A DNA stretch of 64,000 bases, taken from the NCBI RefSeq assembly GCF_012222305.1, contig NZ_CP035730.1, positions 2,692,945 to 2,756,944 of the forward strand, written 5' to 3'. Below, piece by piece: positions 35,971 to 46,201 of the stretch. Source of the stretch: Sulfolobus sp. S-194 (GTDB taxonomy: Archaea > Thermoproteota > Thermoprotei_A > Sulfolobales > Sulfolobaceae). The notes beneath the pieces were generated by a model that worked only from the letters and a program-made list of their open reading frames with translations, had not been told where the DNA came from and ran no database searches. The first letter of the stretch is position 1. Every line of letters begins with the position of its first letter. Both the position numbers and the translations under genes were made by a program.

Positions 35971-36013
35971 TTTTATGCTCAACATAATTTTATCAAATGC
36001 CATCTGTTTGATG

Positions 36014-36057
36014 TGGATAACATATCCAAAAAGTTTATAATATGGATAACCTATCCA
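36014..36057 (+). promoter_or_regulatory. Twin palindromic operators around the Ni/Co permease TATA box
   Basis: Two near-identical 15-base palindromes, TGGATA-ACA-TATCCA (36014-36028) and TGGATA-ACC-TATCCA (36043-36057), have centres 29 bases apart. The TATA element TTTATAAT (36034-36041) sits exactly between them. The second palindrome covers the stretch between TATA box and start codon at 36064. This geometry is that of a repressor blocking TBP/TFB and RNA polymerase. A metal-sensing regulator is the natural candidate; none is encoded beside the gene. Confidence 0.65.
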
Positions 36058-44664: not shown

Positions 44665-44909
44665 ATCCTAAGACATTCTTTAATTTTTTCTATTAGTATT
44701 TCTGCGTCGTCTTTTTCTATGTGGACGAAATATCTCCAACTTTCGTCATTAAGAGAAGGAAAGTTCAAAATAATATTAGATATTGCTTTGCATTCTTCTG
44801 TATTTTCTACCTTATCTGGATTATTCTTCAAAAACTGTTTAATAAAATTTATAGCAGTTAAAGGTTTTCCCATTCTAACTAGATTTAATGCATATTTAAT
44901 TTCCTCCAT
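44661..44909 (-). CDS. Small helical protein, unknown function
   Basis: An 82-residue helical protein with a TPR-like first pair (ALNLVRMGKPLTAINFIKQF, about 8-27) and two cysteines (ECKAI, KECLRI). No family is certain. It begins within the 3' end of the amino-acid permease gene (25-base overlap) and could be its small partner. Confidence 0.5.
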   Translation of the reverse strand: MEEIKYALNLVRMGKPLTAINFIKQFLKNNPDKVENTEECKAISNIILNFPSLNDESWRYFVHIEKDDAEILIEKIKECLRI

Positions 44910-46201
44910 TCTAATCCCCAGCTTATAATTCCTATTATTACACCTCCAATTAATGAAAGTATTCCAACTAATGTTGTTAAACCAGAGTACGGCACTATAT
45001 TTGAGTAAACACCGTATCCCATTAAAATAACTGCTGAAAATGATAACAAGATATGATATAGCCTAAATCCTATCATTTTCCTTGAAAATAGTGGGAATAA
45101 AGCAGACACTATTACATGTGAACCGTACAAAGTAACTAGAGAGGCTTCTGTAGTTAGTGAGTATACTAGGGAGTACTCACCAGTAATCCCAGCTATCAAA
45201 TTGATTAAAAGAAAGAACAAAGCTACTGCTAAAATCGATTTCAACATATCTTTTCTAAGTAAGCTGTAAGTTAATCTGGATAAAGCTACATAAGCGGCAG
45301 TCACAGAACCAATTAAGCTGTTTATAGTAAAGATAAATATCAATAATGCCATACTATTTCCCATAAGCTTTTGTGCAATATAGTATGCAGGGTACTGAGT
45401 GACATTTAGTAAGTTTTCCATACCAGAATTTGAATATCCGGCGAATGCGATTTCAAAATATGAGGCAAAAAGTACTGAGATTGATGCTATCCAATAAGCA
45501 TAAAGATAGGATTTTGCTACTGTTTTTCCTTTTCCTATAGCCTCATAACCTAGAAAGAACGAGGCACCACCACCTGCAAGTGTAAAACCTACTGCTAAAG
45601 CCCCAGAAAAGAAATCTGATACTGGTACTGAAATCTTTAAGGGATTCAAAGAGAACCCTGTAATAGATATTACTTTTATTCCTAAGATAAATATTAAGAT
45701 TACTTCAATAGTTGAAGTTAAAAGTGCATAAAAAAGTGGTGGTCTTATTCCGCTTAAAAGTAAAAGAGTTAGAACTATAGGAATTAATATTTCTATGAGA
45801 GTGACCATAACAGGTGGGAAAGAAAATTCAGAAGTTATTACTATTCCGGTAAGGTAAGTTGTAGCTGAAGGTAAATATATAGCGTAGCTTATCCAGTACA
45901 GCCAGCCAGCGATTTTCCCCAAAAGTTCACCACCACTCCTTCTAGCAAATTCATATATACCTCCAGTTGAAGCAATTACTTTTGAGTACTCATATCCAAT
46001 TAATACCCACAAAAAGTAGATTAGCACACCAAAAATCCCAGCTATAAATGTCGAGGACAAGGAGTATTGGAGAGCGTATGTTAAATATGCTGAGGCAGAA
46101 CCTAAAGGGGCTATGGAACTTAAAGATTGCGCATAAATAAGATATCTTGGTATCGTATTTTCTTTTGGCTCTAATTTCTTGGATAAGTTAACCATACGCA
46201 T
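44885..46201 (-). CDS. APC-family amino acid permease
   Basis: A 438-residue carrier with about 12 membrane segments and the APC fold. The first segment region SLSSIAPLGSASAYLTYAL (about 29-47) carries the unwound-helix glycines typical of these permeases, and the GGIYEFARRSGGELLGKIAGW segment (starting about 79) is the conserved helix 2-3 loop. It imports or exchanges an amino acid or polyamine; the substrate is not readable. It diverges from the small acidic-protein gene at 46234. Confidence 0.82.
   Translation of the reverse strand: MRMVNLSKKLEPKENTIPRYLIYAQSLSSIAPLGSASAYLTYALQYSLSSTFIAGIFGVLIYFLWVLIGYEYSKVIASTGGIYEFARRSGGELLGKIAGWLYWISYAIYLPSATTYLTGIVITSEFSFPPVMVTLIEILIPIVLTLLLLSGIRPPLFYALLTSTIEVILIFILGIKVISITGFSLNPLKISVPVSDFFSGALAVGFTLAGGGASFFLGYEAIGKGKTVAKSYLYAYWIASISVLFASYFEIAFAGYSNSGMENLLNVTQYPAYYIAQKLMGNSMALLIFIFTINSLIGSVTAAYVALSRLTYSLLRKDMLKSILAVALFFLLINLIAGITGEYSLVYSLTTEASLVTLYGSHVIVSALFPLFSRKMIGFRLYHILLSFSAVILMGYGVYSNIVPYSGLTTLVGILSLIGGVIIGIISWGLEWRKLNMH

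Follow-up and report, generated by a model that had tools for sequence, protein, structure and literature searches.

A palindromic box at cobalt and cobalamin genes of the Sulfolobaceae: a predicted operator with a wHTH-DUF4443 protein as candidate regulator

Rodionov et al. reportedly predicted, in 2003, an archaeal 'CBL-box' for a hypothetical archaeal B12 regulator. The box described here is probably this archaeal CBL-box (the 'CblR' cobalamin regulon of RegPrecise), to which we liken it by gene list and type of site. To our knowledge, archaea largely lack B12 riboswitches; in the Sulfolobales, B12 serves the methylmalonyl-CoA mutase of the carbon-fixation cycle. The site of the nickel regulator NikR has six-base arms lying 16 bp apart. 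The cobalamin regulator of P. furiosus was still listed as unknown in 2023 (PMC10746257), and the bacterial cobalamin riboswitch classes are associated with cobalt transporters, B12 transporters and B12 biosynthesis genes (PMC3766115). Our study concerns a 64-kb stretch of the genome of Sulfolobus sp. S-194 (the window), in which a NicO-family permease gene is preceded by a pair of short palindromes.

The palindrome pair at the NicO promoter

The two palindromes, TGGATAACATATCCA upstream and TGGATAACCTATCCA downstream, are both perfect 6-3-6 repeats, with centres 29 bp apart and the 14 bp AAAAGTTTATAATA separating them (Table 1). An initial annotation, made from the sequence alone, had described two same-armed palindromes flanking the NicO TATA box, and the pair is present as described. 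It had also placed the TATA box exactly between them; the element does lie between the palindromes, but it is off-centre, with a gap of 5 bp to the first and of only 1 bp to the second. The TATA box lies approximately 26 bp upstream of the NicO ATG, which follows just after the second palindrome, as annotated, with six intervening bases (AATATT). An in-frame GTG is found upstream, at 36013; the ATG was taken as the start of the gene because a 97 % identical orthologue aligns from there and because the box is conserved as DNA. No other same-arm 6-3-6 palindromes stand within 60 bp of each other in the window, and a same-arm pair, with any arm, arose in 2 of 200 first-order Markov simulations of it.

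Table 1. Coordinates of the box copies, core promoter and associated genes in the window
Feature	Position	Strand	Evidence or remark
Upstream box copy, TGGATAACATATCCA	36014..36028	.	Directly adjoins the BRE/TATA region; with the ATG counted as +1, about -50 to -36
Core promoter: purine-rich BRE-like AAAAG and TATA box TTTATAAT (36034-36041)	36029..36041	+	Sequence
Main box, TGGATAACCTATCCA	36043..36057	.	-21 to -7, between the TATA box and the predicted transcription start; fits TGGATAR-N-YTATCCA
NicO-family Ni2+/Co2+ permease, 356 aa	36064..37134	+	PF03824, 347.7 bits (cut-off 27.7); TIGR00802, 348.8 bits (cut-off 333.05)
APC-type (amino-acid permease) transporter, same regulon as NicO	44885..46201	-	Pfam AA_permease, 48.7 bits (cut-off 24.6)
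Third box copy in the window, TGGATAAGTTAACCA, 1 mismatch	46180..46194	.	Overlaps the start of the APC-type permease gene

Relatives of NicO were present in 23 of the 31 Sulfolobaceae genomes. The box, with at most one mismatch, was found no more than 220 bp upstream in 20 of the 29 NicO loci examined, and it is thus conserved before orthologous permeases. In the orthologous promoters of several genera it occupies the same place, usually straight after the TATA box. The tandem pair around the TATA box is common to two further genomes (G029 and G030), in which the upstream copy reads TGGATAACTTATCCA, and the NicO gene of another (G006) has a box on either side of its TATA box at a spacing of 27 bp, the second copy carrying one mismatch.

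The S-194 genome (G000) encodes a second full NicO paralogue (G000:C1:1356823-1357863, L057), upstream of which the box is absent. This gene and its relatives (L054-L056 and L058) share other short, similar elements upstream, such as GTAGTAAAG before the TATA box, and the paralogue is possibly a nickel transporter under other control. A NicO fragment of approximately 155 residues (G000:C1:2020106-2020641) has a box with one mismatch upstream and looks like a decayed third copy. The presence of the box argues that a NicO carrying it transports cobalt and not nickel, and the permease of the window is probably a cobalt importer of the B12 regulon.

Distribution of the box and content of the regulon

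Across the 31 Sulfolobaceae genomes, the exact pattern TGGATAnnnTATCCA was found at 93 sites (the sum of the per-genome counts) against 5 for the reversed control. In the S-194 genome (2.79 Mb) the exact motif occurs 4 times, twice at NicO, once at bluB and once at cbiX-cbiC, with no match to the reversed pattern. Ninety-two sites were fetched and assigned to classes by comparing the downstream frames with seed proteins, and in 85 cases the site marks the start of a regulon gene, namely NicO (18), BtuF-like (20, of which 2 are shared with a divergent FecCD gene), FecCD (6 more), BluB (18), CbiX-CbiC (14), APC-type permease (8, being 6 plus 2 of a second type) and CbiG (1). The remaining 7 had no assigned gene, and one of them (L117) precedes what looks like a NicO remnant. 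Frequent occurrence at unrelated positions, which would have spoken against an operator, was therefore not observed. A few exact matches do fall inside unrelated coding sequence (e.g. L108, L114 and L122), as palindromes arising by chance or from repeats would, but the excess over the control, the concentration at regulon genes and a second arm that changes to match the first (see below) have already refuted that explanation.

The regulon proteins scored above their model cut-offs, with BluB at 235 bits (cut-off 150), CbiX-CbiC at 526 (298), CbiG at 472 (376) and NicO at 349 (333). One S-194 box heads a run of genes for CbiX-C, CbiH, CbiD, CbiT, CbiL and CbiF, of which CbiX-C, CbiH and CbiL were confirmed by NCBIfam and the other three were named by eye. 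At the APC-type permease, the sites in G029 and G030 that are orthologous to the third box of the window are exact (TGGATAAGTTATCCA), and a box stands at the start of its relatives in 6 Sulfolobaceae genomes and in two order-mates outside the family (L316 and L319). The permease belongs to the B12/cobalt regulon in several genera as well as in these order-mates, which brings it into B12 metabolism; it may carry a precursor or a building block of B12.

In gene orientation the consensus is TGGATAR-N-YTATCCA, with R in 80 and Y in 84 of 87 sites. Most of the 87 oriented family promoters have a TATA-like element whose end is 0-3 bp from the box, on its upstream side. Apart from the upstream NicO copy, nearly all boxes are placed after the TATA box and before the start codon, which they often overlap. 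In several genes, such as those at L110, L131 and L166, the likely start codon is overlapped by the box, and the first residues, M-D-S/N-L-S, would then be encoded by the operator. What the computation shows directly is the motif and its conservation, a placement almost confined to B12 and cobalt genes, the position relative to the TATA box and, as described below, the association with the DUF4443 gene. As the box is directly downstream of the TATA box, repression is predicted; the tight repression that the initial annotation had read from the geometry of the leaderless NicO promoter agrees with a box between TATA box and start and with a predicted operator pair. Activation through the boxes is an alternative, above all for the upstream NicO copy, which precedes the BRE and TATA box, where activators can act. 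We consider this very unlikely, since nearly all of the other boxes occupy what is the repressor position in archaeal promoters.

Beyond the Sulfolobaceae, order-mates (f3) have the palindrome in the promoters of BtuF-like genes, of an APC-type permease and of further genes. In f8 (L310) it lies upstream of a methylmalonyl-CoA-mutase-type B12-binding domain, named by eye. ECF-type S components with an upstream palindrome were seen in f11, f13, f22 and f34, one from f11 scoring above the Pfam cut-off and one from f22 just below it. A genome of the Nitrososphaeria (G247) has the palindrome upstream of NicO at two loci, and the pattern TTGGATRnnnYATCCAA was counted, from the table, at 34 sites in 42 Nitrososphaeria genomes against 0 for the reversed control. 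Other matches in distant genomes, inside coding sequence, were set aside as chance-like. In G242 (L343:4119) an exact box stands at a NifH-family gene; partner-like genes come after it and a CbiL-like gene is close by. This arrangement suggests a tetrapyrrole reductase under the same control as the box regulon. In G058 (L443:3974-4283) a box lies 52 bp upstream of a gene for an RcnR/CsoR-like metal-sensing repressor, which itself comes after a transporter-like gene.

The initial annotation had assigned the pair to another metal sensor, one that it could not name. A sensor of nickel is not supported by the survey, since elsewhere in S-194 and in the family the box stands at B12 uptake and synthesis genes. 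The box is instead the predicted operator of a cobalt/cobalamin regulon. More broadly, a nickel- or cobalt-ion sensor of the NikR, DtxR/MntR or RcnR type could act at a metal-uptake operator, with the B12 genes co-regulated through their need for cobalt. Boxes at NicO and CbtAB and the one in G058 fit such a sensor, and a cobalt-ion signal would yield a similar gene list. BluB, CbiX-C, CbiG, BtuF/FecCD and the ECF transporters, however, point to corrinoid or its synthesis and not to ion homeostasis. The 15-bp palindrome, whose arms are 3 bp apart, is also unlike the 6-16-6 NikR site, a difference that the initial annotation had pointed out. We therefore regard an ion sensor as unlikely.

A winged-helix-DUF4443 protein as candidate regulator

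Clustering of the neighbours shared around boxes led to one helix-turn-helix family, in which a winged helix-turn-helix (wHTH) domain is joined to DUF4443. It was the only helix-turn-helix family so recovered that had both box-bearing promoters of its own and linkage to box-bearing genes in two lineages. In the Nitrosopumilaceae, 16 of the 23 best-matching DUF4443 genes have a box upstream (at most one mismatch on five-base arms), just downstream of a TATA-like element. At most of these 16, cbtB is divergent and the box lies between the DUF4443 gene and cbtBA; CbtB and CbtA were confirmed by Pfam in one genome. In several of these boxes both arms have changed (TGGATG...CATCCA), which is what a site bound symmetrically by a protein would be expected to show. 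Nitrosopumilaceae DUF4443 genes away from cbtB have no box, and the box could therefore serve the divergent cbtBA alone. A DUF4443 gene and a box-bearing ECF transporter gene are approximately 1.1 kb apart in f13, and two such genes are also close together in f34.

The DUF4443 gene is single-copy in all 31 Sulfolobaceae, and in S-194 it is found outside the window, at about G000:1634658-1635278, and encodes a protein of 206 aa. It was present in all nine f3 genomes examined. The order-mate family f2 yielded no DUF4443 gene at E≤1e-6 and no promoter-type box, its one exact box being inside coding sequence. The family was found in 248 of 300 Thermoproteota, including genomes without an exact box, and being near-universal in the phylum its co-occurrence with the box is, alone, weak evidence. 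The Sulfolobaceae gene carries no exact box and is unlinked to B12 genes, adjoining argF and a NAD-kinase-like gene; the latter is conserved downstream of it (L355 and orthologues).

The S-194 protein matched CggR_N (40.0 bits, cut-off 30) and DUF4443 (37.2 bits, cut-off 27). Its AF2 model (pLDDT 93.9) aligned over most of its length with PDB 2P8T (E 2e-8), and with the DNA-bound CggR domain at 1.1 Å rmsd over 68 columns. No strong structural match of the DUF4443 fold to a known corrinoid-binding domain was found.

Other candidates were also considered. For a helix-turn-helix fused to a B12-binding domain, PF02310 gave one match above the cut-off in the S-194 genome, in a 145-aa frame that is too short, and one below it, and this option was rejected. 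No regulator was recognized by eye among the ORFs of the cobalamin cluster (L210). A winged-helix-like gene near the f3 site L315 was seen only in f3.

On the evidence of gene neighbourhoods, the wHTH-DUF4443 protein is the likely regulator and a candidate binder of the box. The regulon and operator could be the same with another DNA-binding protein as regulator, the DUF4443 gene near cbtBA or the ECF genes being merely a regulated neighbour. The Sulfolobaceae gene, unlinked and boxless, would fit this, and so near-universal a family could have a housekeeping role. Against it are the family's singular recovery from the neighbourhood clustering and a structural model that appears clearly that of a DNA-binding protein, and we hold a different regulator to be possible, though distinctly the less probable reading. 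On balance we favour, with some reserve, the wHTH-DUF4443 family of the Thermoproteota, found also in Pyrococcus as PH0730, as the archaeal cobalamin/cobalt repressor that has been missing, in organisms ranging from Sulfolobus to ammonia-oxidising archaea. This nomination is the new part of the work. In the literature searched, nothing was found on the CBL-box, on DUF4443 or on CbtA with Thaumarchaeota, and PH0730 occurred once, as the name of a wHTH family.

Proposed mechanism and comparison with described systems

We infer the binder, the repression and the ligand from the data above. It appears reasonably probable that the boxes are operators of a cobalt/cobalamin regulon, bound by a wHTH-DUF4443 dimer that represses when corrinoid or cobalt is sufficient. 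Under this proposal, a dimeric, PH0730-like winged-helix protein would bind TGGATAR-N-YTATCCA under such sufficiency and, seated on the 15-bp palindrome beside the TATA box, would block TBP/TFB or RNA polymerase. Repression would shut cobalt import (NicO), B12 import (BtuF/FecCD) and corrin synthesis (the CbiX-C operon and BluB). The NicO promoter, whose TATA box has a copy on either side, the upstream one just before the BRE, would be under tighter control. The gene list, with its B12 uptake and synthesis genes, makes a corrinoid end-product the most likely signal, with the cobalt ion as the alternative.

The result is a clean predicted operator with a regulon spanning cobalt uptake, B12 uptake and corrin synthesis. 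The B12 of the Nitrosopumilaceae bears on the aquatic B12 supply (PMC4303638), and if the proposal is true, DUF4443 proteins control B12 supply from Sulfolobus to ammonia-oxidising archaea implicated in global B12 production.

Compared with described systems, NikR/nikABCDE-type nickel regulation likewise represses a Ni/Co permease, whereas the six-base arms of the box are only 3 bp apart and its regulon is one of B12 and cobalt. The cobalamin riboswitch regulons have the same kind of gene list, but the riboswitch is an RNA aptamer in the mRNA leader and the box a DNA palindrome at a leaderless promoter. PH0730 (PDB 2P8T), a hypothetical protein, shares the wHTH and DUF4443 fold and domain order with the candidate regulator, at approximately 22 % identity in the structural match. 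What the box has in common with the CBL-box/CblR regulon of archaea is a palindromic DNA site at genes for cobalamin synthesis and for the transport of B12 and of cobalt. Our study adds the distribution of the site over the Sulfolobaceae and further Thermoproteota, the two copies in tandem around the NicO TATA box and the naming of a candidate regulator. The DUF4443 nomination would give a regulon of a known type its missing regulator, from one protein family with a solved relative.
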